Assembly: GCA_022843175.1 (NCBI GenBank) | Contig: JALHOE010000080.1 | Coordinates: forward strand, 1 to 36,259 | Length of the DNA stretch: 36,259 nt | Direction: 5' to 3' | Source of the DNA: Deltaproteobacteria bacterium | GTDB taxonomy: Bacteria > Myxococcota_A > Polyangia > Polyangiales > JADJMO01 | Shown here: positions 4,953 to 36,259 of the stretch, piece by piece | Numbering within the stretch: the stretch's first letter is position 1 | Layout of the letters: each line of letters opens with the position of its first letter | The notes under the pieces: model-generated | The model's input: the letters and a program-made list of their open reading frames with translations, nothing else | Told to the model about the DNA's origin: nothing | Database searches by the model: none | Translations under genes and position numbers: made by a program

Positions 4953-4962
4953 CGCGGGGGCC

Positions 4963-7308: not shown

Positions 7309-7311
7309 GAC

Positions 7312-11008: not shown

Positions 11009-11010
11009 GG

Positions 11011-13387: not shown

Positions 13388-13392
13388 GTTAT

Positions 13393-13396: not shown

Positions 13397-13403
13397 TGGC
13401 CCC

Positions 13404-13982: not shown

Positions 13983-13991
13983 GCGCGTCTT

Positions 13992-14020: not shown

Positions 14021-14029
14021 TCTCCCTGC

Positions 14030-14784: not shown

Positions 14785-14787
14785 CCG

Positions 14788-16931: not shown

Positions 16932-16933
16932 CC

Positions 16934-19277: not shown

Positions 19278-19281
19278 CTCG

Positions 19282-20367
19282 CTACGCCGCTCCGCGGAGG
19301 TGGGTATAGAGGGAGAGGTAGGCGTCGTTCATGCGGCGCGCGTCGAACTGGCTCGCCCGCACGCGCGCGCGCGCGCCGAGCTCGCCGGCGCCGTCCCGGA
19401 GCGATCGCATCGCGTCGGCGAGGGCCTGTTCGTCGCGCGCGGGGACGACCACGCCGGCGTCGTCGAGGACCTCGCGCACGCCCCCGACGTCGGTCGCGAC
19501 AATGGGGAGGCCCGTCGCCATCGCCTCGACCAGCGCGAGCGGCAGCCCCTCGGAGCGAGACGAGAGGACGAACGCATCGAAGCTCGCGAGCAGGCGCGCG
19601 ACGTCGCTGCGGCTGCCGGGGAGGTGGATGAAGGGCGAGCCGCGCGCCTCGTCGCGCACGCGGGACGCCTCGCTCCCGTCGCCCACGATCACCGCGTGGG
19701 TGCCCTCGGAGAGCAGCGGCCGCGCCGCTCGGATGAAGAGCGCGTGGTCCTTCTCCGGCGACATGCGGCCGACGGTGCCGAAGACGAACGCCGTCTCGGG
19801 GATCCCGAGCTCCGCGCGCACCTCGCGCCGCGCGTCCGCGTTCGCGCCGAAGCCCTCGAGCGCGACGCCGTTGGCGATCGTGTGCAGCCGGGCCGGCGGA
19901 CACTCCGCGTTGTCGGCCGCGACCCGCGCCGTGGCCCCGGAGACCGCGACGTACGCGTGCGCGAGCCGACCGCCGAGCCTCCGCAACCACAGCTGCCGGC
20001 CGCGCGCCGGGTTCACGCCGTGCTTGGTGTGCACCACGGTGGAGCCCGCGAGGCGCCCCGCCAGCGCGCCGTAGAAGAGCGGTTGCGGGTTGTGGGTGTG
20101 GACGATCTCGACGCGCTCGCGTCGAAAGAGGAGCGAGAGCCGCGCGACCAGCGTCGGATCGACCCCGCGGCCCTTCGGTACGGTGTGCACCGTCACGCCG
20201 CGTCGCGCGAACTCGTCGCGCAGCGGACCGTCGGGGGGCGGCGCTAGGGAGACCGCGTGCACCCGATGTCCCTCGACCACCTGCGTGGCGGCGAGATCGA
20301 GGGCGACGCGCTCCTGACCACCGAGCGAGAACGACGAGAGGACGTGCGCGATCGTGAGCGGTGTCAT
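19282..20367 (-). CDS. GT4-family glycosyltransferase
   Basis: A 361-residue cytosolic GT-B enzyme. The N-terminal acceptor domain opens with IAHVLSSFSLGGQERVALDL, whose Gly-Gly-X-Glu loop is typical for GT4. The donor domain has FGTVGRMSPEKDH, then VIVGDGSE, and the EX7E motif in SRSEGLPLALVEAMATG, followed by IVATDVGG. It is expected to add a hexose or HexNAc to the lipid-linked oligosaccharide. Its ATG overlaps the stop of the sugar-phosphate transferase gene by 4 nt (ATGA), so it probably acts in the first steps after initiation. Donor and linkage cannot be read from the sequence. Confidence 0.92.
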   Translation of the reverse strand: MTPLTIAHVLSSFSLGGQERVALDLAATQVVEGHRVHAVSLAPPPDGPLRDEFARRGVTVHTVPKGRGVDPTLVARLSLLFRRERVEIVHTHNPQPLFYGALAGRLAGSTVVHTKHGVNPARGRQLWLRRLGGRLAHAYVAVSGATARVAADNAECPPARLHTIANGVALEGFGANADARREVRAELGIPETAFVFGTVGRMSPEKDHALFIRAARPLLSEGTHAVIVGDGSEASRVRDEARGSPFIHLPGSRSDVARLLASFDAFVLSSRSEGLPLALVEAMATGLPIVATDVGGVREVLDDAGVVVPARDEQALADAMRSLRDGAGELGARARVRASQFDARRMNDAYLSLYTHLRGAA

Positions 20368-21059
20368 TGCCCCTTGCGCGCCAGCATCATCAGCGGCGTG
20401 CGGAGGATGATCGAGAGCTCGGTGACGATGAACGTCCCGAAGTCCTCGAGCGCCGCGCTGTAGGCGAGGTCATAGAGGAGCTTGACGCGCATGTCGTCGG
20501 CGATCGCGCCCTCGGCGGCGTCGAGGTCGAACGGATTGGTGAGGTCCGCGTCGAACGCGGAGATCGCGCTCCCCGGCATCGACCGCCCCGTGTACCCGAG
20601 GGAGACCTGCGCCATGCCGGTGAGGCCGGGGCGCACCGCGCGCATGCGCTCCTCGAAGAACGGGATCGCGGCGGCGAGCGTCTCGAGGAGCTCTGGGCGC
20701 TCTGGTCTCGGTCCGACGAGCGACATGTCGCCGCGGAGGACGTTCCAGAGCTGGGGCAGCTCGTCGAGCCGCGTCGCGCGAAGGAAGCGACCGACGCGGG
20801 TGACGCGCGGATCGTTCTCGGACGCCAGCACCGCGCCGGTCTTCGCCTCGGCGTCGACCTGCATCGTGCGGAACTTGTAGACGTCGAAGACGTCGAACTG
20901 CAGGCGGGCGCCGTCGTGCAGCTGCCCGGCGCGCCGCTGCGTGAAGAAGATCGGTCCGGGACCGTCCGAGCGAATCGCGAGCGCGATGAGAGGGAAGATC
21001 GGCAGCGTCAGCCCGAGGCCGACCGAGGCGCCGACCACGTCGATGAGACGCTTCGTCAT
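20364..21059 (-). CDS. initiating polyprenyl-phosphate sugar-1-phosphate transferase (small PglC-like type)
   Basis: A 231-residue monotopic phosphoglycosyl transferase, expected to place the first sugar-1-phosphate on undecaprenyl phosphate at the inner membrane. The N-terminal reentrant helix has prolines at 20 and 23. KFRTM is at 62-66, the catalytic Asp-Glu pair is in [20 protein letters not shown] (Asp99, Glu100), and GPRPERPE follows. The extra four-helix N-terminal region of WbaP/EpsL-type enzymes is absent, so this is the minimal form. The ATG at 21059 gives the canonical [11 protein letters not shown] start; the frame is open further upstream but does not look coding there. First gene of the leftward GT operon, divergent from the GT4 gene at 21165. 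Confidence 0.93.
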
Positions 21060-21081
21060 GAGAACTGCGCGACTCGGCACG

Positions 21082-21116
21082 CCTCCCCTTACTACTAATT
21101 CCCCTGCTCGGGGAGG
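21082..21116. promoter_or_regulatory. inverted repeat around an AT-rich core between divergent glycan genes
   Basis: CCTCCCC (21082-21088) and GGGGAGG (21110-21116) form a perfect 7-bp inverted repeat. It flanks TTACTACTAATT (21089-21100), the most AT-rich stretch in the 105-bp region between the sugar-phosphate transferase and the GT4 gene. It could be an operator or a hairpin around a -10 region. No -35 partner is convincing on either strand. Confidence 0.35.
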
Positions 21117-21164
21117 GGCGCTCTCGTTGAGAACGCTGCGTCGACAGACTCGCGGCGCTCGGAT

Positions 21165-22361
21165 ATGAGACGCGCCCTCTTGCGCGTGCTCGTCGTCACG
21201 AAGATCTTCCCGAACTCCCTCGAGCCGCATTCGTCGCCCTTCAACCGGCAACAGTTCGCGGCGCTCGGTCGTCTCTGCGACGTAGAGGTGCTGGCGACGA
21301 TCCCATGGTTTCCGTTCGCGTCGCTGGCCGGCGCGCGAACCCGAGCGAGCACGCTGAGCCGCGTCCCCACGGCCGAGCAGATCGACGGTCTCGACGTCGC
21401 CCACCCTCGTTTTCTGTATGTGCCGAGGATTGGCGACGCGGTGGCGAGCCCGCTCTACGCCGCGTCGCTGCTGGCCGAGGTGCGGCGACGTCGCAAGGTC
21501 GACCTCATCCTTGCCTCGTGGGCGTATCCCGACGGAGCGGCGGCGGTGATGCTCGGCGCGCTCTTCGGCATCCCCGTCGCGATCAAGCTCCATGGATCGG
21601 ACATCAACGTGATGGGCGAGCGGCCGGTGGTACGCGCCCACCTCCGCCGTACGCTCCCGCACGCCGCCGCGGTGGTGGCCGTGAGCAAGCCGCTCGGCGA
21701 GCGGGCCGTCGCGCTCGGCGCCGCCCCCGCGCGCACGTTCACCGTCGCCAACGGCACCGATCTCGAGCGGTTCGCGGTGCGCGATAGGGACGCAGCCCGA
21801 CGCCGCCTCGGCGTCCCGGACGAGGGCCGCTTGATCACCTTCGTCGGCCGACTCGAGCGCGAGAAGGGCGTCCTCGATCTGCTCGAGGCGTTCGCCCTCG
21901 TCGCGCGCACGCATCCCGATGCGAGACTGGTGCTCGTCGGCGACGGCAGCGCACGCGAGCAGGTCGTCCGGCTCGCCGCACCGCTCGGAGATCGCGTGCT
22001 CCTCGTCGGCGCACGCCCGCACGAGGACATCCCCGACTTCCTCGCCGCCGCCGACGTCTTCACCCTCCCGAGCTGGAACGAGGGAACGCCCAACGTCGTG
22101 CTCGAAGCGCTCGCCTCCGGGCGCCGGGTGGTCGCGACGCGGGTCGGAGGCATCCCCGACGTGCTGCAGACGGATGAGCTCGGAACGCTGGTGCCGCCGC
22201 GCGCGCCCGACGCGCTCGCGCGGGCCCTCGGCGAGGCGCTCGATCGCCCCTACGATCCCGCCGTGATCGCCCGGAACGCTCCGATCCGCAGCTGGGACGA
22301 TAGCGCACGCGATCTGTTCGACGTCCTCACGCGCGCGCTGCGAGGGGCCGCGCGGACATGA
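21165..22361 (+). CDS. GT4-family glycosyltransferase
   Basis: A 398-residue GT-B enzyme. The N-terminus LRVLVVTKIFPN is typical, followed by KLHGSDINVM in the acceptor domain and VANGTDLERF in the hinge. The donor domain has FVGRLEREKG, LVGDGSA, and the EX7E region in WNEGTPNVVLEALASGRR, ending VVATRVGG. It adds one sugar to the growing repeat unit on the cytoplasmic face. The stop overlaps the start of the deacetylase gene (ATGA at 22358-22361), so product assembly and deacetylation genes are co-expressed. Donor and linkage are unknown. Confidence 0.92.
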   Translation: MRRALLRVLVVTKIFPNSLEPHSSPFNRQQFAALGRLCDVEVLATIPWFPFASLAGARTRASTLSRVPTAEQIDGLDVAHPRFLYVPRIGDAVASPLYAASLLAEVRRRRKVDLILASWAYPDGAAAVMLGALFGIPVAIKLHGSDINVMGERPVVRAHLRRTLPHAAAVVAVSKPLGERAVALGAAPARTFTVANGTDLERFAVRDRDAARRRLGVPDEGRLITFVGRLEREKGVLDLLEAFALVARTHPDARLVLVGDGSAREQVVRLAAPLGDRVLLVGARPHEDIPDFLAAADVFTLPSWNEGTPNVVLEALASGRRVVATRVGGIPDVLQTDELGTLVPPRAPDALARALGEALDRPYDPAVIARNAPIRSWDDSARDLFDVLTRALRGAART

Positions 22362-22987
22362 GCCTGCGCGGCCGCATCGGGAGGGCCGGCGCCGATCTGC
22401 TGCCGGCGAGCGTCGTCGTCCGTCGCGGGCGCCGGAGCGCGCCGCGCGTGGCGCTCACGTTCGACGACGGTCCCGACCACCTCACCCATCAGTACCTCGA
22501 TCTCCTCGACCGCCTCGAGGTTCGCGCCACGTTCTTCCTGCTCGGCGCGGCCTGCGCAGCGCGGCCGGCCGACGTACGCGCGATCGTCTCCCGCGGTCAC
22601 GAGGTCGCGGCGCACGGCTTCACCCACCGCCCGTTCCCCTCGCTGAGCAACGATGCGCTCGTCGACGAGCTCCGTCGCTGCGAGCAGCTGCTGCCACCGA
22701 GCGAGCATTCGCGACCGCTCGTGCGCCCGCCGCGCGGCGCGACGACCACCGGCTCGCTGCTCCGCTGCGCTGCGGCCGGCTACCGCACCGTCCTCTGGAG
22801 CCTGGACTCCGACGACTGTCGCACCGACTCGGTCGACGCGATCGTCGCGCGGGTCGTCGCCTCCGAGCCGGGGGAGATCGTGCTCTTCCACGAGGGACAG
22901 GCCTGGACCCTCGCCGCGTTGCCGCGCATCGTCGAGGGCCTGCGCGCGCGCGGTCTCGCGCCGACGACCGTCGGCGAGCTCATCTGA
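22358..22987 (+). CDS. compact NodB-type polysaccharide deacetylase
   Basis: A 209-residue deacetylase with the full set of NodB motifs. Motif 1 is TFDDGPD (34-40). Motif 2 is HGFTH (86-90), giving the His/His metal site with Asp37. Motif 3 is RPPRGATT, motif 4 is LWSLDSDDC and motif 5 is LFHEG. The size is that of the bare catalytic barrel, with no signal peptide and no anchor, so a cytoplasmic substrate such as a lipid-linked intermediate is possible. It is translationally coupled to the preceding GT4 gene. It is the second clear deacetylase of the locus and is much closer to the family consensus than the one at 15885. The 3' end overlaps the convergent PPTase gene by 8 nt. Confidence 0.92.
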   Translation: MSLRGRIGRAGADLLPASVVVRRGRRSAPRVALTFDDGPDHLTHQYLDLLDRLEVRATFFLLGAACAARPADVRAIVSRGHEVAAHGFTHRPFPSLSNDALVDELRRCEQLLPPSEHSRPLVRPPRGATTTGSLLRCAAAGYRTVLWSLDSDDCRTDSVDAIVARVVASEPGEIVLFHEGQAWTLAALPRIVEGLRARGLAPTTVGELI

Positions 22988-23597
22988 CGAGCACGGCGGT
23001 CGCGACGAAGTCCTCGGTCACCAGGTAACGGCCGCGCACGCGCCGTTGCTCGCCGCCGAACGTCGCGAGCGCGTCGAACTCGCCGTCGTCGAGGAGCTCG
23101 AGCGCGACGTCTGCGAACTCGAGGAGCCAGCCGGCGGCGGGGAACAGCGCCTTGTAGACGCTCTCCTTGGCGGAGAACGCCACGGTCGACGCGAGGGGTC
23201 GCGCGCCGAGTCGGTCCTCGCGGTGGACGACGAGGCGCTCCACCTCGGGGGCGAGCGGACGGGCCAGCTCGAGATCGATCCCGAGCGCTACGGCGTCCGA
23301 AGCGCGCGCGACCGCGGCGACGGCACGCTCGCCCGCGTGGGAGATGCTGCCCACCGCGCCGGCCGGCCACACCGGCGCGCGACGCGCTCCACTCGGGATG
23401 GGCGCCGCGGCGATCCCGAGGCCGAGGAGCGCGCGCCTCGCAGCCGCGCGACCGGCCGCGAACTCGGCGCGTCGCGAGGAGACGGCGCCGGCGACGGTCC
23501 GCTCCTCCTCCGGGAACAGCGGCTGCGTACCGTAGCGCTCGACGGCGACCACGACGCCGCGATCCGGGAACAACGTCCGCAGCGCGTCCTCGATCAT
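22980..23597 (-). CDS. 4'-phosphopantetheinyl transferase (EntD/Sfp family)
   Basis: A 205-residue enzyme that transfers phosphopantetheine from CoA to the serine of carrier domains. SRRAEFAAGR (41-50), WPAGAVGSISH (77-87), the metal motif GIDLE (106-110) and FSAKESVYK (141-149) are the expected PPTase signatures of the EntD-like subgroup. The ATG at 23597 gives the usual MIEDALRTLFP start; a TTG 14 codons upstream (23639) is possible but less typical. It stands alone on the minus strand among sugar genes. Nothing in the polysaccharide pathway seen here needs it, while the NRPS at 28304-36259 has at least two carrier domains that do. It could also serve housekeeping carrier proteins. Confidence 0.92.
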   Translation of the reverse strand: MIEDALRTLFPDRGVVVAVERYGTQPLFPEEERTVAGAVSSRRAEFAAGRAAARRALLGLGIAAAPIPSGARRAPVWPAGAVGSISHAGERAVAAVARASDAVALGIDLELARPLAPEVERLVVHREDRLGARPLASTVAFSAKESVYKALFPAAGWLLEFADVALELLDDGEFDALATFGGEQRRVRGRYLVTEDFVATAVLVR

Positions 23598-23665
23598 CCT
23601 CCGCGATCCAGCGAAACGGGCAATCGACGTGCGCGTCAAGGGAGGCTAGAAGGCGACGCCCCGCG

Positions 23666-25135
23666 ATGGCCGCGACCTCGATCGGAAACCGCGCCGCACG
23701 CGGAGCGATGTGGAACGTGGGCGCCAGCGTTGCCTCGCGCGTCGTGGGCCTCGTCGGCACGCTGTACATGACGCGGCTCCTCCTCCCCGACGTCATCGGC
23801 GAGGTCTCGGCTGCGGCGGTCCTCGCTCAGAGCGCGAGCTGGCTCTCGCACTGGGGCTTCAACCAGTACATGGTGACCAAGGCCGCGGAGGACGACGACC
23901 GCACCTATCACGTCACGGTGATGAACGTCGTGTTCGGGTTCGTCGGCATCACGCTCATCGCGTTCACCGGCTCGCTCTTCGGTCCGGTGTTCAGCACGCC
24001 GAACCTCGCGCTCTATCTTCCGGGGCTCGCGCTCTCGGTGTTGATCCGGCGCCTGACGGGCGTCGTCGACAAGGTCCTCGTCCGGGAGCTGCGCTTTCGC
24101 GAGGTCGCGATCGCCAACGCGGTCGGGGAGATCCTCTTCACCGTGACCGCGATCTCGCTCGCGGCGACGACGAAGCTCGGCGGCCAGGCGATCGTGATCG
24201 CCAACATCGTGCAGTCCCTCGTGGCGGCGCTCCTCGTCGTGCGCGCTGCCGGGTTCGGGTGGCTGCACCGCGTGCCGTGGAAGTGGGAACGGGCGCGCGA
24301 GATCGTGCGCTACGGCTTTCCGCTCGGGGTCGCCCAGGTGTTGGGCAGCGCCTCGCGCTACTGGGACAACCTCGCGTTCTCGGCGTTCTTCGGCCGGCGC
24401 GTCCTCGGCCTCTACAACATGGCCTACAACCTCGCCGACGTCCCGGCCGTGCAGTTCGGCGAGCAGATCGCCGGGGTGCTCCTGCCGGCGATGGAGAAGG
24501 TGAGCCCGGCGGATCGCAAACGCGCGGTGGTCAACGCGTCGGCGCTGCTCGCGCTCGTCGTCTTCCCGATGGCGATCGGCCTCGGCGCGGTCTCGCGCTC
24601 GTTGATCGCGCTGCTCCTCAAGCCCGACTGGCAGGGCGTGGCGCCGCTGCTCACGGTCCTCGCGGCGCTCTCGGTGTTCCGTCCGTTGACGTGGGTGTTC
24701 TCGTCGTACCTCGCGACGTTCGGGCGAAACCGCATGCTCATGGCCCTCGAGGCGATGAAGCTCGTGCTGCTCATCGGCTGCATCGCGGCGTTCGCCAAAT
24801 GGGGTCCGCTGTGGTCGGCCGGCGCCGTCGGGCTCGCGTTCGCGCTCCACGCGCTCGCGATGGTGACGTTCGTCGTGCGCGCCGACGGCATCTCGGTGAG
24901 AGCGCTCGCCAGCGGCTTCTTCCGCCCGCTGCTCGCGTGCGCGGTCATGACCGCCGCGGTTCTCGGGGTTCGCCACGGCCTCCACCTCCGTGGCATCCGC
25001 GCGCCGCTCATCGTGCTGCTCGCCGAGCTGCTCACCGGCGGAGTGGTGTACGTGGCGGCCGCGCTGGTCGTCGCGCGCGACACGAGCCACGAGTTCATCG
25101 GTCGGGTGCGCAAGGCGCTCCGCCGCGGCGCGTGA
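23666..25135 (+). CDS. Wzx-type oligosaccharide flippase
   Basis: A 489-residue integral membrane protein of the MATE/MOP superfamily with about 14 hydrophobic segments. The start GAMWNVGASVASRVVGLVGTLYMTRLL is shortened here to its key features: a tryptophan-containing amphipathic entry followed by a long helix ending in LYMTRLLLP, typical for Wzx. The later segment FSAFFGRRVLGLYNMAYNLA is also characteristic of the family. It moves undecaprenyl-linked repeat units across the inner membrane for Wzy. It is transcribed alone, diverging from the PPTase gene; its stop and that of the convergent GT gene are separated by one base. Confidence 0.92.
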   Translation: MAATSIGNRAARGAMWNVGASVASRVVGLVGTLYMTRLLLPDVIGEVSAAAVLAQSASWLSHWGFNQYMVTKAAEDDDRTYHVTVMNVVFGFVGITLIAFTGSLFGPVFSTPNLALYLPGLALSVLIRRLTGVVDKVLVRELRFREVAIANAVGEILFTVTAISLAATTKLGGQAIVIANIVQSLVAALLVVRAAGFGWLHRVPWKWERAREIVRYGFPLGVAQVLGSASRYWDNLAFSAFFGRRVLGLYNMAYNLADVPAVQFGEQIAGVLLPAMEKVSPADRKRAVVNASALLALVVFPMAIGLGAVSRSLIALLLKPDWQGVAPLLTVLAALSVFRPLTWVFSSYLATFGRNRMLMALEAMKLVLLIGCIAAFAKWGPLWSAGAVGLAFALHALAMVTFVVRADGISVRALASGFFRPLLACAVMTAAVLGVRHGLHLRGIRAPLIVLLAELLTGGVVYVAAALVVARDTSHEFIGRVRKALRRGA

Positions 25136-25136
25136 A

Positions 25137-26435
25137 TCAGCGCTGCGCAGCCGCAGCGGCGGCGCGGAGCACCTCGGCGAAGCGGCCGGCCAGCGCGCGA
25201 CGATCGTACTGATCGATGTCGACCGGCGAGGAGCGAAGCTGCTTCGGCGCCCGGAGTCGCGCCTCGAGCGCCGCGGCGATGCCCTCTTCGTCGCGCGGCA
25301 TGAGCACGTCGCCGAGGGCGTGCCGTCGCGCGAGCCGGGTGAGCGCGCCCTCGGGCGCGAGCGTCAACACCGGGCGACGGAGGTGCATCAGCTCGAAGAT
25401 CTTGGCCGGGTAGACGCGCTCCGCGCCGGGGACCTCATCGAGCAGGCAGAGGGTCATGTGGCTCGCCGAGAGCGAGGTGAGCACCTCGTCGTGGGGGACG
25501 TAGCCGAGGAGCTCCACCCCGAGCGCCTCGGTGCCCTCGAACAGATGGCGCTCGGTGTCGACCACCCGACCGAGGAACCGCACCGAGAGCCTGCGCGCGA
25601 GCTCGGGCTCGGCGCGGTGCAGGCGCCGGATCGCGCCGAGGAGGCCGCGCGGGCTCGTGAGGCGGAAGATCGTGCCGGCGTAGGTGAGCACGAACCGGTC
25701 GTCCGGGGGGTCGGGCAGATCGCTCGGATAGTCGGCCGGATCGTAGCCGTTCGGGATCGTGACGACGCGCTCGCGGGAGAGAAAGCGATGGGTCCGCAGG
25801 AGCTCCTCGCGAAACTCCTCTGTGGCGGTGGTCACGTAGTGCGCGCAGCGGAGCAGCGCCGGCTCGAGCGCGTCGCCGGCGAGACGCGCCGCGGGGCTCG
25901 CGGTCATCTCGTAGCTCGTGCGGTAGGTGCTCCACTCGTCGCGATAGTCGAGCACGAGGCCGACGCCGCGGCGGGCGCGCACCAGCGGCGCCACGAGGAA
26001 CTGCGAGAACGGCGGTCCGCTCGCGAGCACCACGTCGTCGCGGCGCGCGCGGAGCCGACGCGCGAGCGCGAGCTGCGCCGCCGGCTGCCACAACACCTGC
26101 GCGTCGGGGAGGAGGATCGCCCGCGCCGCCGTCGAGAGGGCGCTGATCGCGCGCCGCCCGGGGGTGGGCTTCGCGGCGCTCGCGTTCCACGCCGCCGCCT
26201 TCGCCGCATAGCTGGGCTCCAGAGTGCGCGCGCGCACGACCTCGAGACCCTCGGGCAGCTCGGAGACCAGCGAGTCGTCGCGCAGCGGCACCGAGGGGTT
26301 CGCCACGGTGAGCACCGACGGCGTCACGCCGCGCGCGCCGAGGTACTTCACGAGCTTGGACATGCGCTGCACGCCCGCGCCGCCGACCGGCGGGAAGGCG
26401 TACGCGACGATCAGCGCGCGGAGGCTTGCATCCAC
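25137..26435 (-). CDS. GT4-like glycosyltransferase
   Basis: A 432-residue GT-B enzyme starting at GTG 26435 (MDASLRALIVAYAFPP). PVGGAGVQRMSKLVKYL gives the N-terminal nucleotide-domain loop. LDYRDEW, VTTATEEFREEL and IPNGYDPADYP mark the acceptor domain and hinge, and LTYAGTIF opens the donor domain. The C-terminal EX7E motif is weak: KIFELMHLRRPVL replaces the usual EG-rich loop. This is the pattern of the WsaF-/ExoL-like branch of GT4. The start lies inside the 3' end of the upstream GT2 gene (25-nt overlap), so the two are coupled. The donor is not predictable. Confidence 0.88.
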   Translation of the reverse strand: MDASLRALIVAYAFPPVGGAGVQRMSKLVKYLGARGVTPSVLTVANPSVPLRDDSLVSELPEGLEVVRARTLEPSYAAKAAAWNASAAKPTPGRRAISALSTAARAILLPDAQVLWQPAAQLALARRLRARRDDVVLASGPPFSQFLVAPLVRARRGVGLVLDYRDEWSTYRTSYEMTASPAARLAGDALEPALLRCAHYVTTATEEFREELLRTHRFLSRERVVTIPNGYDPADYPSDLPDPPDDRFVLTYAGTIFRLTSPRGLLGAIRRLHRAEPELARRLSVRFLGRVVDTERHLFEGTEALGVELLGYVPHDEVLTSLSASHMTLCLLDEVPGAERVYPAKIFELMHLRRPVLTLAPEGALTRLARRHALGDVLMPRDEEGIAAALEARLRAPKQLRSSPVDIDQYDRRALAGRFAEVLRAAAAAAQR

Positions 26436-27448
26436 GGCTGCGTGCTAACACGGGAGCGATCGCGGTCGAACAGCCCGTATCGCACGAGGCCGACGGCGAA
26501 CCCCACGCCGTGCGACACGTGCAGGGTCGGGAAGATCGCCCACACGATCGGGACGGCGGAGAAGCCCGCGCGGCGTCCCACGCGGAGCGCCTCGATGCCC
26601 GTAGCGAGCGCGTACCCGGCGAACGCGAACGGCGTCACCGGCTGCACCGCGCTCGTGGAGACCAGCGCCGCGGCCGAGACCACCATCAAGAAGGGGATCG
26701 CCGGCCTCAGCGAGAGGAGCTTGCCGTGCTTGAGGAGCGTGCGCGCCCTGCCCTGCCCGTACTTGAAATACTGCTTCGCGAGCGAGCGGAACGAGTCCCG
26801 AGGGAAGTAGTGAAAGACGATCTCCCGCGAGAGGTACACCTTGCCGCCCGCGTCGACGATGCGCTGATTGAGCTCGGCGTCCTCGTTGGTGATCGCCCGG
26901 GGGTCGTACAACCCGACCTTCTCGAACACCGCTCGCCGGAAGGCTCCGAAGGACACCGTGTCGACGAAGCCCTCGTTCTCCTCGGAGCGATACTTGGCGC
27001 CGCCGACGCCGAGCGGGCTCGCGAGCGCTGCGCAGAGCGCGCGCTGAAACGCCGTCTTGGCGCGGGCGCGGGCGGCGCCGCCGACGTTGTCGGCTCCGGT
27101 GCGCTCGAGCACCTCGATGCATTTGCGAACGTAGTCCGGTGCGTACTCGGAGTGGACGTCCATCCGCACGATGACGTCGCCGCGCGCCACGCGGATCGCC
27201 TCGTTCATGCCCGCGGCCTGGATGCGGCCGGGGTTATCGATGAGCTTGATCCGAGGGTCCTCGACCATCAGGCCGGCGAGGATCTCCCGGGTGCGGTCGC
27301 TGCTCCCGCCGTCGGCGACGAGCACCTCGATGCGGTCGCGCGGGTAGTCCTGCGCGAGGACGCTCCGCAGGCAGGCCTCGATGAAGCGTTCCTCGTTGAG
27401 ACACGGCATCGCGATGGTGACCATCGGCGGCTGCGGGTTGCCGTTCAT
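26411..27448 (-). CDS. GT2-family glycosyltransferase (ExoA-like)
   Basis: A 345-residue membrane-associated GT-A enzyme. The N-terminal catalytic domain has VTIAMPCLNEERFI (10-23), VADGGSSDRT (44-53), a DXD-like RMDVHSEY and the acceptor motif NEDAELNQRI. An amphipathic region with FPRDSFRSLAKQYFKYG and three hydrophobic C-terminal segments follows, as in succinoglycan ExoA. It should add a sugar to the lipid-linked acceptor at the inner membrane. It precedes the overlapping GT4 gene in a two-gene leftward operon and diverges, with a 38-nt gap, from the methyltransferase gene. Confidence 0.9.
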   Translation of the reverse strand: MNGNPQPPMVTIAMPCLNEERFIEACLRSVLAQDYPRDRIEVLVADGGSSDRTREILAGLMVEDPRIKLIDNPGRIQAAGMNEAIRVARGDVIVRMDVHSEYAPDYVRKCIEVLERTGADNVGGAARARAKTAFQRALCAALASPLGVGGAKYRSEENEGFVDTVSFGAFRRAVFEKVGLYDPRAITNEDAELNQRIVDAGGKVYLSREIVFHYFPRDSFRSLAKQYFKYGQGRARTLLKHGKLLSLRPAIPFLMVVSAAALVSTSAVQPVTPFAFAGYALATGIEALRVGRRAGFSAVPIVWAIFPTLHVSHGVGFAVGLVRYGLFDRDRSRVSTQPWMQASAR

Positions 27449-27486: not shown

Positions 27487-28317
27487 ATGGTCCGCGCCGT
27501 GTCCATCCTCGATCTGAGCCGGCGCGTGCTCCGCCGCGCGCAATACCTCCCCGTCGTGAACGACATGCTGGCCGCCGACTACGAGCGCACGTTCGCGCGC
27601 GGCCCGAAGGGGCGTTTCCGCGGCGTCTTCCGCGACTTCGCGGCCGCCGAGGCGTCGATCCCGAAGGGCAAGCGCGTCGGCTACGACCACGTGGAGCTCG
27701 CGGGCATGTACCGCGACCGCATGAAGAAGGCGTGCGAGAGCGACTACGCGGTCCTGTACTGGATGCGTCGGATCCTCGATGCCGAGCCCGCGTCGATCGT
27801 CTACGACTTCGGTGGGCACGTCGGCGTCTCGTATCACGGCTGGCGCAACTACCTCCCCTACGGCGACGGCCTCCGCTGGATCGTCTACGACATGCCGGCG
27901 ATCACGCGGGTGGGCGAGGAGCTCGCGCGCGAGACCGGCAGTCGCCACCTCTCCTTCACCAACGCCGTCGAGGACGCGCGCGACTGCACGGTCTTCTTCT
28001 CCGCGGGTGCGCTCCAGTACTGCGAGGAGTCCGTGGCGTCGCTGCTCGAGCGCGCGCACGCGCGCCCGCGGCACATCCTCCTCAACAAGATGCCGGTCTA
28101 CGAGGGAGAGAGCTTCGTGACGGTGCAGTCGACGGGCCGCGCGTTCCACGCGTACCGCGTCTTCAATCGCGCCGAGCTGCTCCAAAGCATCGAGTCGCGC
28201 GGCTACCGCCTCGTCGACGACTGGCAGAACAGCGAGGTCTCGTGCGTGGTCCCCTTCGCCAGGGGCAAGGAGATCCCCTCGTACAGCGGCTACTACTTCG
28301 AGCTCATTTCCCGCTGA
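27487..28317 (+). CDS. putative SAM-dependent methyltransferase (TIGR04325-like)
   Basis: A 276-residue soluble protein. The SAM-binding motif I is IVYDFGGHVGVSYHG (104-118), followed by WIVYDMPAI as motif II and FFSAGALQYCEE in the place of the motif IV/post-I strand. This set resembles the TIGR04325 methyltransferase family, which often occurs in O-antigen and EPS loci and is thought to methylate sugars. It is encoded between the glycosyltransferases and the assembly-line gene, so methylation of the peptide product is an alternative. Its 3' end overlaps the convergent NRPS gene by 14 nt. Confidence 0.78.
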   Translation: MVRAVSILDLSRRVLRRAQYLPVVNDMLAADYERTFARGPKGRFRGVFRDFAAAEASIPKGKRVGYDHVELAGMYRDRMKKACESDYAVLYWMRRILDAEPASIVYDFGGHVGVSYHGWRNYLPYGDGLRWIVYDMPAITRVGEELARETGSRHLSFTNAVEDARDCTVFFSAGALQYCEESVASLLERAHARPRHILLNKMPVYEGESFVTVQSTGRAFHAYRVFNRAELLQSIESRGYRLVDDWQNSEVSCVVPFARGKEIPSYSGYYFELISR

Positions 28318-31300
28318 GCGCGGCGAACAGCCGCGACAGCACCCCGGACGGGCGCTTCTCGGGCTCGGCGCGCGGTGGCGCCTCGGCCGGGCGATCGTAC
28401 TCGAGCGCGATCTGCGCGAGGGAGTTGAAGACGAAGGTGCGCGGGCTGAGCCGCTTGTGGGTCGTCGCCTCGAGCATGCCGATCGCGCGCATGATGAGGA
28501 GCGAGTGCCCGCCGAGATCGAGGAAGTTGTCGTCGACCGAGATCTGCTCCACACCGAGGAGCTCGCGCCACACCGCGGCGATCGCCTTTTCGGTTGGGGT
28601 GCGGGGGGCGACGATGGCGCCGTTGGCCTGACCGTCCTCGCCCGCCGGGGTGGGTAGCGCGCGCCGATCGACCTTGCCGTTCGGCGTGGTCGGGACTCGG
28701 TCGATCACGGTGAACGAGGCGGGCACCATGTATTCGGGGAGGCTCGCGCGGAGGTGCTCGCGGAGCTCCGCGGTCACCGGCCGCGCGCCACGCGCGACGA
28801 CATACGCGACCAGGCGGTTCTCGCCGCCGGGACCGGGTCGCGTATCGACGACCGCCTGGGCGACCGAGGGGTGCGAGGCGAGCGCGGTCTCGATCTCGCC
28901 GAGCTCGATGCGATACCCCCGCACCTTGACCTGGAGATCCTCGCGCCCGAGGTGGACGAGGCGCCCATCGGCTCGGTAGCGGCCACGGTCGCCGGTTCGA
29001 TACATCCGCGCGCCGGGACGCTTGGAGAACGGATCGGGGACGAAGCGCTCGGCGGTGAGCTCGGGGCGCGCGTGGTAGCCGAGCGCGACCCCCTCGCCCC
29101 CGATGTAGATCTCGCCCGGCACGCCGATCGGCACGAGCGCGCGCTGCTCATCGAGGATCCACACCTGCGTGTTGCCGATCGGGCGACCGATCGACACCCC
29201 GCGCTCCTCGGGCGTCACCCGACCGCAGGTCGACCACACCGTGGTCTCCGTCGGTCCGTACATGTTCCACAGCGCGCCGCAGCGCTGGAGCAGCGCGTCG
29301 GCGAGCTCGCGGGTGAGCGGCTCGCCGCCGCAGAGCGCGGTGAACGCGGCGCCGCCGCGGAACCCCGCTTCGATCAGCATTCGATAGGTCGCGGGCGTCG
29401 CCTGCATCACCGTCGCCGACGTCTCCGCGATGAGCGTGGACAGCGCGCGGCCGTCGGTCGCCTGCTGCCGCGTCGCGAGGACGATCTCCGCGCCGACCGT
29501 GAGCGGGAGGAAGAGCTCGAGGACGGCGATGTCGAACGAGAGCGTGGTCACCGCGACGAGTCGATCGCTCTCGCGGAGCCCGGGCTCGCGCTGCATGCTG
29601 ACGAGGAAGTTGATCACCGCGCGATGCGGGACCTTCACGCCCTTCGGCTTGCCGGTGGAGCCGGAGGTGTAGATCAGGTACGCGGCGTCGTCGCCCTCGA
29701 CCCGCCGCGGCTCGCACGCGGCGCGCTCGGGGAGCGCGGTCATCGAGAGCAACCGCCCCTGGTCGACCCCGAGCGCGGAGACGTCGCCATCGGCGATGAC
29801 CACGCGCGCGGAGGCGTCCTCGAGCATGAAGCGCAGCCGATCGCGGGGGAACTCGGGATCGAGCGGGAGGTAGGTCGCCCCGGCGCGCAACACGCCGAGC
29901 ACCGCGGCGAGCATGTCGAGCGAGCGCTCGAGGTGAATCGCGACGACGTCGCCGCGCTCGACCCCGCGCTCTTGGAGCGCCGCGGCCACCTGCCCGGCCC
30001 GCCGCCAGAGCGCCTCGTAGCTGAGGGAACGCGAGCCGCAGCGCACCGCCGAGCGCTTGGCGTAGCGCTCCATCAGCGGCGCGAGCCAGGTCGCGAGATC
30101 GGGCTCGGCCGGGAGCTCGCGGCCGGTGTCGTTCCAGTGTTCGAGCTGCGCGCGCTCGCCCTCGGGGATGGCGAGCACCTCGCCGCACGTGCGCGCGGGA
30201 TCGCGCGCGATCTCCTGCAGCAGCGAGAGGTAGCGCGCACGCAGGCGCGCGATCGTCTCTGCGTCGAGGATGTCGGTGTTGTAGTTGAGGCCGCCGACGA
30301 GCGAGGTCTTCCCCTCGAGCAGCCACAGCGACAGATCCTGCGCCGACGCCGGCTGCAGCACGAGCATGTGCTCGTGCTCGAGGTTGCCCCAACGGAGCGG
30401 GCGATTGCGCGCGTCCTGGAACGAGAAGAACGACTGATAGACGGGGAAGCGACTCTCGTCGCGCTGCACGTCGAGCGCGCGGACCAGCTGCTCGAACGGG
30501 AGCTCCTGGTGATCGAACGCGCGCATCGTGTCGCCGCGGATCGAACGCACCAGCGACAGGAAGCTCTCGCTCGGGTCGACGCGCAGGCGGAGCGGCAGCG
30601 CGTTCACGAAGTAGCCCATCACGTCCTCGAGCTCGGGCAGATTGCGCCCGCGCACCGGCGTCCCGACGACGACCTCGCGTTGTCCGGTGAGGCGGTGCAG
30701 GAGCAGCGCCCAGGCCGCGAGGAGCGTCATGAACAACGTCGCGCCCTCGCGGCGACCGACCTCGCGCATCGCGGCGGCGAGCGGAGCGGGGACCTCGAGC
30801 CACTCGGTCGAGCCCTTGCCGCTCTGCACCGCCGGCCTCGGACGGTCGAGCGGGAGATCGAGCACATCGGGCGCCCCCTCGAGCTCGCGCCGCCAGAACT
30901 CCACCGGCTCGGCGATGCGCTCGCCGGTGAGCCAGGTGCGGTGCCACTCGCTGAAGTCCTGATACGAAACGCGGGGCGCGGGGCGCGTGGGCTGTCGCCC
31001 CGCCGAATACGCCCCGTAGAGCTCGGCCATCTCCTCGTAGAAGAGGTCGAACGACCACCCGTCCCAGATCAGGTGGTGCGGCATGAAGAAGAACAGGTGC
31101 TCCTCGGGCCCGAGCTTGAACACCCGCGCCTGGAACAAGGGACCGCGAGTGAGGTCGAACGGCTCGGCGACGTGCGCCTCGATCCGTGCCGCGAGCACCC
31201 GCTCGCGGTCCTCGCGCGACAGCGACGAGAGATCGGTCGCGGGGAACAGCGGCACCGAGAGCGACTCGAGCACGACCTGACAGGGCGCGCCGCGGTCGCT

Positions 31301-34300
31301 GCCCACGATCGTACGCAGCGCGCTCTGGCGGCGGACCATCTCGTCGAACGCGCGCTGGAACGCCTTCTCGTCGAGCGCGCCATGGAGGCGGTGCGCGGAG
31401 GGGACGTTGTAGACGACCCGACCGAGGTCGAGCTGCTCCAGGTACCACAGCCGCTCCTGCATCGAGGACAGCGGCGCGGGCGCGGCGCCCGTGCGGGTGG
31501 GGATGCTCGGCAGCGCCGCGCGGACCCCGCTCGCTTCGTCGAGGTACGCGGCGAAGGCGCGCGCGGTCGGATGCTCGAACACCGCGCGCATCGGGATCGT
31601 CCGCGAGAGGTCGCGTCCGAGCCGCGCGGCGAGCTGCGCCGCCAGGAGCGAGTGACCTCCGAGCAGGAAGAAGTCGTCGTCGATCCCGACCCGCGGCAGC
31701 GCGAGCAGATCGCAGAACGCCGCGGCGACGAGGCTCTCGGTCGCGGTGCGCGGCGCCTCGGCGGAAGGAGCCCCGCTCGCGACCGTGGGCGCGGGCAACG
31801 ACTTGCGATCGACCTTGCCGTTGGGGAGCAGCGGCAGCGCGTCGAGCCGCACGAACCGCGCCGGGATCATGTAGTCCGGCAGCAGCCGGCCGAGGTGCGC
31901 GCGCAGCGCCGACTCGTCGAGGTCCTTGGTGACCACGTATCCCACGAGCCGGTCCTCGCGCGCGACGACCACCGCGCGCTCGACCGCCGGATGGCGCGCG
32001 AGCGCGACCTCGATCTCGCCGAGCTCGATCCGATAGCCACGGAGCTTCACCTGGAAGTCCGTGCGCCCGAGGCACTCGAGGACGCCGCTGTTGCGCCAAC
32101 GACCGAGATCGCCGGTGCGATACAGCTTGCCGCCGGGGCGAGACGGGTCGGGGACGAAGCGCTCGGCGTTGAGCTCCGGTCGCTCGAGGTAGCCGTGGGT
32201 CACGCCGTCGCCGCCGATGAACAGCTCGCCGACGACGCCGATCGGCACCGGGGCGAGGTCTCCGTCGAGCACGTGGATCTGCGTGTTGGCGATCGGCTTG
32301 CCGATCGGGATCGACGCGTCGGGGCTCGTCGCGACGCGATGGAAGCTCGACCACACGGTGGTCTCGGTCGGTCCGTACCCGTTCCACAACGCGCCGACGC
32401 GCGGAAACAGCTCGGTCGCGAGATCGCGGGGCATCGCCTCGCCGGTGCAGATCGCGGTGATCCGCGGGTCGCCCTGGTAGCCCGCGGCGAGCAGCATGCG
32501 CCACGTCGAAGGCGTCGCGTCGATGAAGGTCACCCCCGAGCGCTCAACCAGCGCGCGCAGGCGATCGCCGTCGGTGACGTCGGCGCGGCTCGCGAGCACG
32601 ATGCTGGCGCCGACGGTCAGCGGGAGGATCAGCTCGGACACCGCGATGTCGAAGGACAGGGTGGTGACCGCGAGGACCACGTCGGTCTCGCGCATGCCGG
32701 GCTCGCGCGCGACGCTCGTGAGCAGGTTCGTCACCGCGCGATGCGGGACCATGACCGCCTTCGGCGTGCCGGTCGAGCCGGACGTGTAGATCAGGTACGC
32801 GACGTCCTCGACGGTGGGCGCGCGACCCGAGCTCGCCGTGCCGCCCGGCCCCGGGCGATCGAGGAGGAAGGTGCGCGCCTCGTCCAACGCGAGGGTCGAT
32901 CGCAGCGACGACGTGGTCGCCACCAGCTTGACCTTCGAGTCCTCGACCATGAACGCGAGTCGCTCGGCCGGAAACGACGGGTCGAGCGGCAGATACCCGG
33001 CGCCGGCCCCGAGCACGCCGAGGAGGCCGACGAGCAGATGCTCGTCGCGCTCGACGAGGAGCCCCACGAGATCACCGGCGCGAACGCCGCGGGCGCGGAG
33101 GCCAGCGGAGATCTCGCCCGCGCGTCGACCGAGCTCGCGATAGGTCATCGAGCCGCCGGCGTGGTGCACCGCGACCTTGTCGGGGAAGCGTTGGATCGTG
33201 GACTCGATGAGGTGCTCGATGCGCGCGTCGCGCGGGTACGCGGCCTCGGTGTGGTTCCACTGACGGAGCTGCTGGCGATCTTCTTCGCAGACAATCGGCA
33301 GCGCGCCGACGGTGATGGCGGTGTCCTTCGCCGCCGCCTCGAGCAGCGTCTCGAACGACGCGAGCCAGCGGCGGATCGTCTGCTCGTCGAACAGGTCGCG
33401 GTTGTATTGGCACTCGACCCGCATGCCCGCCGGGCCGTTGTCGACCGCGTTCACGAACAGCTCGAAGGTCTCGAACCGGCGCGGGTTGCTCTCGAACTCG
33501 AGCTCGAGGCCCGGGAATGCGTGCGCCTCGCCGGAGAGCGCCTGGTCGATGTTGAAGACGACGTTGATCAGCGGCAGGCGCGACGGATCGCGGGCCAGCG
33601 GCAGCTGCTGCAGCACGCGCCCGAACGTCACGTCCTGGTGCTCGAACGCGTCGAGGACCGTCTGCCGCGCCTGCCCGAGCAGCTCGGCGAAGCTCTGCTC
33701 GCGCGCGAGTCGGGCGCGGAGCGGCAACATGCCGACGCAGTGACCGACGAGTCCCTGCAGGCCCTCGGCGTTCTGTCCCGCGGCGGGGACGCCGACCACG
33801 AGCTCGTTCTGCCCCGAGAGCCGATGGAGCAGCACGGAGAAGCCGGCGAGCAACGTGGCGAACAGGCTCGTGCCGTGCCGCGCGCCCGCCTTCCGCACCA
33901 GAGCGAGCAGCGACGCCGACAGCACGTGATCGACGCGGCCGGACGCCTGCGTGCGCATCGGCGGACGCGGTCGGTCGGCCGGAAGATCGAGGCCCGGTAC
34001 GCCGCTCGCAAACTGGTCGACCCACCAATGCTCGTTGGCCACCAGGCCCGGCGAGCCCTTGCGCGCCTCGCTGGCGAGCGCGTGCTCCGCGAAGGACGGC
34101 GCCGCCGGCAGGTTCGCCGCGCGCGTGCCGATGTGCTGCGCGTAGAGCGCGGCGAGCTCCTTCACCAACACCCAGTACGACCACCCGTCGAGCACGATGT
34201 GATGACCGGTGAAGACCAGCACGTGGTGATCGGACGCGAGGCGGAGGATCTCCGCGCGGACCAGCGGGCCCGTCTCGAGATCGAACGGCTCGGTGACGTG

Positions 34301-36259
34301 GCGGTCGATCGTCGCGGCGAGCTCCGCGTCGTTGGCCTCGCGCAGCGGCACCTCGAGCGTCGGCGGTTCGCTCGGGACGATGAGCTCGAGGCCATCGCTG
34401 GAGAACACCGAGCGCAGCGCGTCGTGGCGGGCGGGGAGCGCGCGGACCGCGGCGCGCAACGCGGCGACGTCGAGCTCGCCGCGCAGGTGCAGCGACACCG
34501 ACTCGTTGAACGCGAGCGACGCCTCGCTGCCGAGGCGGGTCGCGAGCCAGATCTCGCGCTGGGCCTCGGTGGACGGCACCCGCTTCGCCGCGCGCTCGTC
34601 GACCGGGGCGCGTTCGTCCGCGGCGAGCGTCGGCGTGCGGCGCGGCGGGAAGAACCCGCTCGCCTGCATCTCGGCGACCGCTTCCTTGTAGGCCCGGACG
34701 ATGAACGCGACGTCCTCGTCGGTGTGCGCCGTGGTCAGGAAGCAGGGGAAGTTGTCGAGGATGTGAACGCCGCGATCGCGAATCATCGCGTACACCAGAT
34801 CGGCGTAGGGCAGATCCTCGGTGAAGACGTTGCGCCACAGCGAGGCGAACGTGTTGAGCTTCATCGGCGCGCCGACCTCGGCGAAGTGCGCGTTCAGCTC
34901 GGCGACCATGGCGGCCGTCTTCGCGGTGAGTCGCTCCTGCAGCGCGGGCCCCTGCTCCTTGAGGTAGAGCAGCGAGGCGCGGGCGGTCGCGAGCGCGAGC
35001 GGGTGGCGCACGAACGTGCCGGCGAAGTAGGTGACGCCGACGGTCGGGATCGAGTCGTCGCCGTAGCGCCAATCGCCGCCATCGAGCGCATCCATGAACT
35101 CGCGCTTGCCGGCGATGACGCCGATCGAGTTCCCGCCGCCGACCACCTTGCCGTAGGACGCGAGGTCGGCGCGGATGCCGAACAGCGCCTGGGCGCCGCC
35201 TTGGTGCGAGCGGAAGCCGGTCACGACCTCGTCGAAGATCAGCAGGGTGCCCGACTTCTCGGTCAACGCGCGCAGCTCGTGGAGGAACTCGCGCGGCTGG
35301 AAGTCCGGCCGCCGGCTCTGCACCGGCTCGACCAGGATCGCGGCGAGCTCGTGGGCGCGCGCGCGGAGGATCTCGAGCGACTCCGGCGTGCCGTAGTCGA
35401 GGACCAGAATGTTCTCGGACGTCGACGGCATGATCCCCGGCGCGGCCGGGATCGACCTCAGCTTCTTGGTGCCGCGGACGATGACCTCGTCGAAGATGCC
35501 GTGGTACGCGCCGGTGAAGATCGCGATCTTGTTGCGCCCGGTGACCGTGCGGGCGATTCGCATCGTCCCCATCACGGCCTCGGAGCCGGTGTTGCAGAAC
35601 GCGGCGCGCTCGGCGCCGGTGAGCTCGCAGAACAGCTCGGCGACCTCGCCCGCGAGCACGTGCTGCGGGCCGATCTCGTAGCCGCGCTCGATCTGATCGT
35701 GCATGGCCTGGCGGAGGAAGTCCGGCTGCCAGCCGAACATGTTCATGCCGAAGCCGTTGAGCACGTCGACGTACTCGTTGCCGTCGATGTCGAAGAGCCG
35801 GCTCCCCCGCGACCGCTCAATGACCACCTGGTAGGTGATCTCCTTGGTGAGCGGACGGAAGCCGTTCACCACGCGCGGATCGGCCATGTGGCCGCGGTGC
35901 CGTTGGGTGTACTCCTTCGACTTGCGGGTGCGCTCGCTGTAGCGCTTCATGAACGCGTCGAGGCGCCCGCGCTGCTGCGGCGTGAGCTCGTCCACCCGGG
36001 TGTGGATCCGCGCGATCGCGCCGAAGGCCTTCTTCACGTCGTAGGTGACCGGCCCGGCAGCGGGCTCGTCCTCGTTCCTCGACGGCGCCATGGGCACGGC
36101 GGCCGGGGGCGGCGGCGGCGGCGGCGAGCTACCGAGCAGCGCGAGCTGCTGCCGCATCACCTCCAGCTGCTGCTCGATCACGTGGTTGACCGACGCGGAG
36201 GCTCCCGCGATCGGTGCCGTGGGGAGCGCGGGCGCGGCGGCGACGGGCGCGGGCGCGGC
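28304..36259 (-). CDS. NRPS (probably hybrid PKS-NRPS): aminotransferase-C-A-PCP-C-A-PCP, 5' end outside window
   Basis: The frame is open to the right edge, so the gene is partial; residue numbers below count from the codon at 36181-36179. A VIEQQLEVMRQQLALLG linker of the kind found after PKS carrier domains leads into a class III aminotransferase (about 95-510; FDEVVTGFR, PLP lysine 345 in SYGKVVGGG). C1 is about 534-975 with HHIVLDG at 660-666. A1 is about 986-1465; reading the ten GrsA-aligned pocket positions gives D-I-S-D-I-T-G-V-W-K. PCP1 has Ser1511. C2 is about 1565-2005 with HHLIWDG at 1702-1708. A2 is about 2030-2510 with pocket D-I-L-Q-L-G-M-V-W-K, close to the glycine code. PCP2 has Ser2560. 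A 28-residue tail ending LSRLFAALSGK follows, with no thioesterase, reductase or terminal condensation domain. All core residues look intact. The layout recalls the aminotransferase module of mycosubtilin-type synthetases, which makes a beta-amino acid from a beta-ketoacyl thioester. Confidence 0.95.
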   Translation of the reverse strand, partial: AAPAPVAAAPALPTAPIAGASASVNHVIEQQLEVMRQQLALLGSSPPPPPPPAAVPMAPSRNEDEPAAGPVTYDVKKAFGAIARIHTRVDELTPQQRGRLDAFMKRYSERTRKSKEYTQRHRGHMADPRVVNGFRPLTKEITYQVVIERSRGSRLFDIDGNEYVDVLNGFGMNMFGWQPDFLRQAMHDQIERGYEIGPQHVLAGEVAELFCELTGAERAAFCNTGSEAVMGTMRIARTVTGRNKIAIFTGAYHGIFDEVIVRGTKKLRSIPAAPGIMPSTSENILVLDYGTPESLEILRARAHELAAILVEPVQSRRPDFQPREFLHELRALTEKSGTLLIFDEVVTGFRSHQGGAQALFGIRADLASYGKVVGGGNSIGVIAGKREFMDALDGGDWRYGDDSIPTVGVTYFAGTFVRHPLALATARASLLYLKEQGPALQERLTAKTAAMVAELNAHFAEVGAPMKLNTFASLWRNVFTEDLPYADLVYAMIRDRGVHILDNFPCFLTTAHTDEDVAFIVRAYKEAVAEMQASGFFPPRRTPTLAADERAPVDERAAKRVPSTEAQREIWLATRLGSEASLAFNESVSLHLRGELDVAALRAAVRALPARHDALRSVFSSDGLELIVPSEPPTLEVPLREANDAELAATIDRHVTEPFDLETGPLVRAEILRLASDHHVLVFTGHHIVLDGWSYWVLVKELAALYAQHIGTRAANLPAAPSFAEHALASEARKGSPGLVANEHWWVDQFASGVPGLDLPADRPRPPMRTQASGRVDHVLSASLLALVRKAGARHGTSLFATLLAGFSVLLHRLSGQNELVVGVPAAGQNAEGLQGLVGHCVGMLPLRARLAREQSFAELLGQARQTVLDAFEHQDVTFGRVLQQLPLARDPSRLPLINVVFNIDQALSGEAHAFPGLELEFESNPRRFETFELFVNAVDNGPAGMRVECQYNRDLFDEQTIRRWLASFETLLEAAAKDTAITVGALPIVCEEDRQQLRQWNHTEAAYPRDARIEHLIESTIQRFPDKVAVHHAGGSMTYRELGRRAGEISAGLRARGVRAGDLVGLLVERDEHLLVGLLGVLGAGAGYLPLDPSFPAERLAFMVEDSKVKLVATTSSLRSTLALDEARTFLLDRPGPGGTASSGRAPTVEDVAYLIYTSGSTGTPKAVMVPHRAVTNLLTSVAREPGMRETDVVLAVTTLSFDIAVSELILPLTVGASIVLASRADVTDGDRLRALVERSGVTFIDATPSTWRMLLAAGYQGDPRITAICTGEAMPRDLATELFPRVGALWNGYGPTETTVWSSFHRVATSPDASIPIGKPIANTQIHVLDGDLAPVPIGVVGELFIGGDGVTHGYLERPELNAERFVPDPSRPGGKLYRTGDLGRWRNSGVLECLGRTDFQVKLRGYRIELGEIEVALARHPAVERAVVVAREDRLVGYVVTKDLDESALRAHLGRLLPDYMIPARFVRLDALPLLPNGKVDRKSLPAPTVASGAPSAEAPRTATESLVAAAFCDLLALPRVGIDDDFFLLGGHSLLAAQLAARLGRDLSRTIPMRAVFEHPTARAFAAYLDEASGVRAALPSIPTRTGAAPAPLSSMQERLWYLEQLDLGRVVYNVPSAHRLHGALDEKAFQRAFDEMVRRQSALRTIVGSDRGAPCQVVLESLSVPLFPATDLSSLSREDRERVLAARIEAHVAEPFDLTRGPLFQARVFKLGPEEHLFFFMPHHLIWDGWSFDLFYEEMAELYGAYSAGRQPTRPAPRVSYQDFSEWHRTWLTGERIAEPVEFWRRELEGAPDVLDLPLDRPRPAVQSGKGSTEWLEVPAPLAAAMREVGRREGATLFMTLLAAWALLLHRLTGQREVVVGTPVRGRNLPELEDVMGYFVNALPLRLRVDPSESFLSLVRSIRGDTMRAFDHQELPFEQLVRALDVQRDESRFPVYQSFFSFQDARNRPLRWGNLEHEHMLVLQPASAQDLSLWLLEGKTSLVGGLNYNTDILDAETIARLRARYLSLLQEIARDPARTCGEVLAIPEGERAQLEHWNDTGRELPAEPDLATWLAPLMERYAKRSAVRCGSRSLSYEALWRRAGQVAAALQERGVERGDVVAIHLERSLDMLAAVLGVLRAGATYLPLDPEFPRDRLRFMLEDASARVVIADGDVSALGVDQGRLLSMTALPERAACEPRRVEGDDAAYLIYTSGSTGKPKGVKVPHRAVINFLVSMQREPGLRESDRLVAVTTLSFDIAVLELFLPLTVGAEIVLATRQQATDGRALSTLIAETSATVMQATPATYRMLIEAGFRGGAAFTALCGGEPLTRELADALLQRCGALWNMYGPTETTVWSTCGRVTPEERGVSIGRPIGNTQVWILDEQRALVPIGVPGEIYIGGEGVALGYHARPELTAERFVPDPFSKRPGARMYRTGDRGRYRADGRLVHLGREDLQVKVRGYRIELGEIETALASHPSVAQAVVDTRPGPGGENRLVAYVVARGARPVTAELREHLRASLPEYMVPASFTVIDRVPTTPNGKVDRRALPTPAGEDGQANGAIVAPRTPTEKAIAAVWRELLGVEQISVDDNFLDLGGHSLLIMRAIGMLEATTHKRLSPRTFVFNSLAQIALEYDRPAEAPPRAEPEKRPSGVLSRLFAALSGK

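Follow-up and report, generated by a model that had tools for sequence, protein, structure and literature searches.

In assembly lines of the microcystin/mycosubtilin type (McyE, MycA), a PKS module is followed by a class III aminotransferase and then by a C domain. Type I thioesterases (TEs; PF00975) share the alpha/beta-hydrolase fold and, when fused, lie behind the last carrier domain. Trans-acting release is represented by the fungal offloading hydrolases DcsB and GrgF, which are stand-alone alpha/beta-hydrolases that act on polyketide chains by means of a Cys nucleophile. Adjacent pairs of alpha/beta-hydrolases are also present in polysaccharide loci, where they have been curated as 'hydrolase 1' and 'hydrolase 2, exosortase A system-associated' (TIGR03100 and TIGR03101). 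GrgF fuses two chains (PMC8902786). A full-text search of open-licence papers yielded none that describes a pair of the latter type together with an NRPS.

The window analysed here corresponds to one entire contig, C80, with 36259 bp; the draft genome to which it belongs comprises 9.75 Mb in 470 contigs and is 95.33% complete. One frame at 28304-36259 (-) remains open for 2651 residues and then runs off the contig end. Pfam matches and the translation identify it as the 3′ half of a hybrid NRPS-PKS gene with the order linker-AMT-C-A-PCP-C-A-PCP-tail (one AMT, two C, two A, two AMP-binding_C and two PP-binding matches). All domains are on the minus strand: the class III aminotransferase domain AMT (34889..35830; PF00202, residues 144-457), C1 (33266..34585), A1 (31760..33238, ends approximate), PCP1 (31541..31729), C2 (30143..31477), A2 with its AMP-binding_C part (28673..30070) and the terminal PCP2 (28406..28585). 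By eye, the HHIVLDG motif of C1, the HHLIWDG motif of C2 and the LGGHSL motif of PCP2 are intact. An initial annotation made from the window had correctly read a carrier-terminated NRPS, but it overlooked the AMT domain at the N-terminal end.

That annotation also called for sequence past position 36259, and the gene does continue elsewhere in the assembly. A genome search for KS and carrier domains recovered the 5′ half on contig C92, where the first gene encodes A-PCP-KS-AT-ACP and is cut off by the start of the contig. The last 21 bp of the window (36239..36259) match the first 21 bases of C92 exactly and in frame, and this overlap sits in a short GC-rich tandem repeat encoding an Ala-Pro linker. 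In two related loci, L049 and L052, the ACP, an Ala/Pro-rich linker, a QVIDxQLxxMxQQLAxLGG-like segment and AMT follow one another in one unbroken gene. Because the overlap is in frame and the same order is unbroken in these relatives, the two halves are very likely a single gene, leaving aside the repeat copy number at the junction. The joined line would read A-PCP-KS-AT-ACP-AMT-C-A-PCP-C-A-PCP over about 4,260 residues. Thus, A, PCP, KS, AT, ACP and C domains all occur in one line, with a class III aminotransferase between ACP and C as in McyE and MycA. Unlike in those systems, the starter appears to be an amino-acid-type A domain rather than a fatty-acyl ligase, a TE is lacking and the product would be short.

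The specificity codes of the three A domains, read at positions assigned by motif mapping, are DALWLGGTFK (A0), DISDITGVWK (A1) and DILQLGMVWK (A2). The A0 code looks amino-acid specific and that of A2 is glycine-like. In the literature, DALWIGGTFK is among the common Leu/Ile/Val-type codes and DILQLGMIWK is given for glycine (PMC12283262). The line would load a branched aliphatic amino acid and extend it with malonate, after which AMT would convert the beta-ketone to an amine to give a 3,4-diamino acid; a residue X would then be added and glycine would come last. From these codes and the KS-AT-ACP-AMT order without a KR domain, we infer that the product is a 3,4-diamino acid-X-Gly.

The bare carrier end reported in the initial annotation, without a TE, a reductase or a terminal C domain, is borne out by Pfam and by the translation. 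Behind the last PCP of the window gene, Pfam detects neither a thioesterase nor a NAD_binding_4-type reductase, which led us to reject reductase release. A PF00975 profile run over the genome gives four weak matches, none of which is on C80 or C92. The tail left after PCP2, put at about 28 residues by the annotation, amounts to 25 residues behind the last PCP match. There is also no downstream module, as had been claimed: the next gene encodes a convergent TIGR04325-family methyltransferase (27487..28317, +) whose end overlaps the NRPS stop by 14 bp. A gene on C10 of the same genome was considered as a member of the system and rejected, since it encodes a different enzyme (NAD_binding_4-AMP-binding-ACP-acyltransferase).

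An AMT-domain scan of genome contigs returned 80 related loci with identities of 65-80%; they belong to Myxococcota, Lysobacterales, Burkholderiales, Rhodocyclaceae and Thiomonas. The line of the window is kept in nearly all of them, although it is frequently split after AMT. Terminal genes could be counted in 69 of the 80 loci, with 11 omitted because the end of the terminal gene was not covered or not found. A bare PCP ends 64 of the 69, with tails of 9-52 residues, whereas three end in a fused alpha/beta-hydrolase (HYD2, described below) and two, L071 and L120, in a true Pfam thioesterase (E values of 2.8e-33 and 1.6e-22). The frequency of the bare end among relatives indicates that it is the rule rather than a matter of chance. 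The last module consists of C and PCP alone, with no A domain, in 27 of the 69 loci, among them L058, L059, L062, L075, L081 and L114. L120 is CAMDRT010000001.1, a MAG whose Bordetella parapertussis label looks unlikely.

Directly upstream of the line on C92, a gene that overlaps the start codon of the line by 4 bp encodes HYD2 (C92:4851 to about 5657, -), and a divergent gene adjoining it encodes HYD1 (ending at C92:6592, +); both starts are uncertain. Like the exosortase A hydrolases, the two form an adjacent alpha/beta-hydrolase pair. HYD2 matches TIGR03101 with 87.5 bits and HYD1 matches TIGR03100 with 83.6 bits. Unlike that system, these scores lie under the curated cut-offs (202.75 and 168.45, respectively) and the pair accompanies a large assembly line. 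Among 42 HYD1 domains of more than 150 residues, shorter or broken ones having been dropped, the elbow Cys and the His are present in all 42 and the acid is Asp in 37 (Asn in three, Glu in two). In 41 of 42 HYD2 domains aligned in the same manner, the nucleophile elbow carries Arg. The only canonical exosortase A pair compared, that of genome G198, likewise has a Cys elbow in HYD1 and an Arg elbow in HYD2; it scores above both cut-offs and has Asn at the acid position.

A predicted model of HYD1 (pLDDT 84.5) places Cys130 after strand 124-129, Asp153 after the next strand and His267 after the last strand, which is the order of NRPS thioesterases such as SrfTE. A structural search with this model (VIA-align) returned lipases and esterases first, with Z up to 23.1, and further down the offloading thioesterase DcsB (Z 21.5), GrgF (20.9) and the curacin TE (19.0). 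The structural neighbours of both HYD1 and HYD2 are mostly lipases and esterases of a very common fold. By sequence comparison with solved chains, the Cys of HYD1 aligns with the Ser of MHETase. Residue conservation and the model make HYD1 a candidate Cys-type offloading hydrolase. It resembles a type I TE in fold and in the position of its acid, which comes after the next strand beyond the nucleophile, and HYD2, when fused, holds the position of a TE. The pair differs from type I TEs in being two proteins, one of them apparently dead, with a Cys nucleophile and no PF00975 match, and it differs from DcsB and GrgF, each a single protein with a fungal PKS partner and no dead companion.

In L063, L064 and L090, HYD2 is fused behind the last PCP, with HYD1 adjacent each time, and Pfam finds no TE in the L063 and L090 terminal genes. 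The same fusion occurs in L133 and L134 of the window's own taxonomic family, again with HYD1 adjoining. On the HYD2 tree the fused state needs three changes, two of them forced by well supported branches. HYD2 and HYD1 are themselves fused to each other at L134:9773-11545 (+) and L138:8985-12218 (+). An acyl-CoA dehydrogenase-like gene lies near the former fusion, which suggests further uses of the pair.

All 25 distinct TE-less genomes tested contain a TIGR03101 match at E <= 1e-10, whereas the TE-bearing L071 and L120 genomes give TIGR03101/TIGR03100 matches at background level only (best E 8.2e-6 and 2.7e-5). This exclusion between TE and HYD2 has a Fisher p of 0.0028 and rests on two TE genomes, both MAGs. 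Entries G129 and G196 are, judging by hit position, the same genome, such that 21 entries were counted as 20 genomes. Among 193 relatives, a TIGR03101-like match is present in 8/8 genomes with the AMT line (defined by >= 54% identity and including the window genome) versus 50/185 others (p 4.7e-5). Given its presence in those 50, HYD-like genes must serve other systems too. No HYD pair was found within the analysed flank of 37 of the 69 loci with a complete terminal gene, these ending at PCP; in the genomes tested among such loci the pair is present, in Dyella about 27 kb away. XrtA (TIGR03109) is absent from the window genome and from 20 of the 21 genomes searched. Because only one of the 21 has it, we rejected the idea that the hydrolases depend on an exosortase; they go with the assembly line instead. 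In G198, the line, XrtA and the canonical pair each lie on a contig of 1,600,299 bp, which by this shared length is apparently one and the same.

We conclude that the product is probably released in trans by the HYD1/HYD2 pair, which would explain why the line has no TE. Three observations point to such a role: HYD2 is fused where a TE would be, HYD matches are strong in TE-less genomes and at background in TE-bearing ones, and HYD2-like matches accompany every line-bearing genome in the set of relatives. Release in trans was among the three options offered in the initial annotation and is the one favoured by these data. With a Cys-His-Asp centre of thioesterase type, HYD1 would accept the peptide carried by the last PCP and bind it as a Cys thioester, and HYD2, an apparently catalytically dead relative with its elbow Arg, may serve as an adaptor on the last carrier domain. 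Trans-acting release is of a known kind; what seems to be new is the variant, a two-part Cys/Arg unit tied to these lines. A missing domain thereby becomes a testable release mechanism common to Myxococcota and several proteobacterial orders, in which a thioesterase and a protein pair have been naturally swapped. It also provides a candidate function for two curated families whose names give none.

Where the peptide would go can be considered in light of the neighbouring polysaccharide locus (3680..27448). In addition to glycosyltransferases, this locus encodes a TviB-like dehydrogenase (3680-4924), a Wzc-like kinase (7312-9570), an O-ligase-like protein (9635-11008), two deacetylases (16008-16931 and 22358-22987), a CapK/PaaK-like AMP ligase (16934..18295, +), a sugar transferase (20364-21059), a 4′-phosphopantetheinyl transferase (22980..23597, -) and a Wzx-like flippase (23708-25135). 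Among the 63 related loci that span 17 kb or more, 53 encode one or more homologues of these genes and 36 encode two or more, in a count without a matched random-locus control. No such homologue lies in the flank of the other 10 loci, half of which are from Variovorax. A neighbour scan covering 121 of 123 proteins from 26 of the 80 loci (one protein of L053 and one of L117 being omitted) identified nine TIGR04325 methyltransferases, eight phosphopantetheinyl transferases, six sugar transferases, four deacetylases and four flippase-type proteins. These counts, together with the G198 contig, speak for a shared pathway. A link of the line to exopolysaccharide is likely, and transfer of the peptide onto a glycan, raised as a speculation in the initial annotation, is possible.

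Specifically, HYD1 and HYD2 might hand the peptide carried by the last PCP to an exopolysaccharide-pathway acceptor, such as an amino sugar produced by a deacetylase or a flippase intermediate, to give a peptide-decorated glycan. We regard this as a real possibility rather than the expected outcome. It differs from the trans-release proposal in the acceptor only. The idea draws on the position of the window line within a polysaccharide locus that has two deacetylases, on the frequency of polysaccharide homologues and sugar genes around related lines, and on the Cys/Arg elbow, which HYD1 and HYD2 share with the canonical pair of exosortase-A hydrolases from polysaccharide loci. Against this stand the failure to identify a glycan acyltransferase, the 10 loci whose flanks hold no polysaccharide homologue, and the ordinary TE used by two relatives; the homologue count, moreover, has no random-locus baseline. 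If the product does end on a glycan, the system would be a nonribosomal route to a modified exopolysaccharide. A broader generalization, that a widespread two-component enzyme made of a Cys hydrolase and an Arg pseudo-hydrolase takes amino acids or nonribosomal peptides from their carriers and attaches them to nascent surface polysaccharide, with exosortase-A hydrolases 1 and 2 as the minimal form and the window line as an elaborate form adding a diamino-acid peptide that ends in glycine, is one that we consider rather unlikely.

The window gene ends in a basic-hydrophobic tail, PSGVLSRLFAALSGK (28307..28351, -), that is kept in kind among relatives as a Pro/Ala-rich linker followed by a short basic-hydrophobic end; Thiomonas tails read GGLVKRLFGGLSRGG. 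The initial annotation had singled out this LSRLFAALSGK-like segment, and it is indeed a conserved feature. A net charge of at least +3 in the last 20 residues is found in 63 of 70 terminal tails versus 6 of 77 AMT-gene tails (p 3e-26, from related sequences that are not independent), and the window's own tail carries +2. Terminal genes with a fused HYD2 or TE have no such tail. Nor do L054 and L140, in which HYD2 is separate, and this counts against the trans-release proposal as given above. Its hydrophobic moment does not generally exceed that of shuffled sequences (mean shuffled fraction 0.32).

Both docking to HYD2 and membrane anchoring fit these data: the tail may bring in HYD2 or attach the line to the membrane. 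If it were a membrane-targeting helix, like the MinD tail that it resembles, rather than a docking peptide, the line would sit at the inner membrane, the site of glycan synthesis, and HYD1 would release the product. This arrangement is conceivable if somewhat doubtful. The strongly basic tails with hydrophobic residues in between speak for it, as do the Thiomonas tails. The lack of a general excess in hydrophobic moment does not, and the loss of the tail from genes with a fused HYD2 or TE suits docking better than anchoring.

Release by HYD1 and HYD2 must also be weighed against an editing function. Hydrolases encoded on their own next to NRPS genes are in many cases type II TEs, and the pair might likewise edit or proofread by clearing stalled chains while the finished chain leaves spontaneously, for example as a lactam or a diketopiperazine, given that the predicted chain would have two free amines able to cyclise. 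We consider this improbable, since the fusion of HYD2 behind the last PCP and the lack of the pair in TE-bearing genomes fit release instead; in addition, neither L052 protein attains a Pfam gathering score.

A PF00668 profile run over the genome gives three matches, two in the window gene and one sub-cut-off on C74. With no other convincing C domain in the genome, no downstream NRPS subunit was found, and we rejected a second subunit as the acceptor; the transfer to another NRPS subunit envisaged in the initial annotation is thus not supported. A search for an additional NRPS gene bearing a normal TE turned up only the upstream half on C92 and the two alpha/beta-hydrolases next to it, and a lost subunit is unlikely. 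Hand-over of the chain to another TE-bearing NRPS/PKS subunit in the missing 5% of the genome is very improbable: absence is not absolute in a draft of 470 contigs that is 95.33% complete, and the conserved tail could be a docking helix, but the one further C-domain match is sub-cut-off, the next gene in the window is a convergent methyltransferase, and the 64 of 69 related loci that also end at PCP include many on large contigs.

Beside the polysaccharide genes, the window also encodes a 915-residue TPR-type regulator-like protein (816-3563, -) and an FHA-containing phosphatase/response-regulator-like protein (5590-7308, -). In L054, SGNH-type, MBOAT, 90-residue carrier protein and AMP-ligase genes lie directly upstream of the line (L054:20-4805, +) in an arrangement like that of a dlt operon. 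A similar trio consisting of a ligase, a carrier and a 489-residue protein is present at L139:791-4538 (-). Cupin_8 domains occur in 11 of the 121 neighbour proteins from the 26 related loci scanned, and these proteins are candidate tailoring oxygenases.
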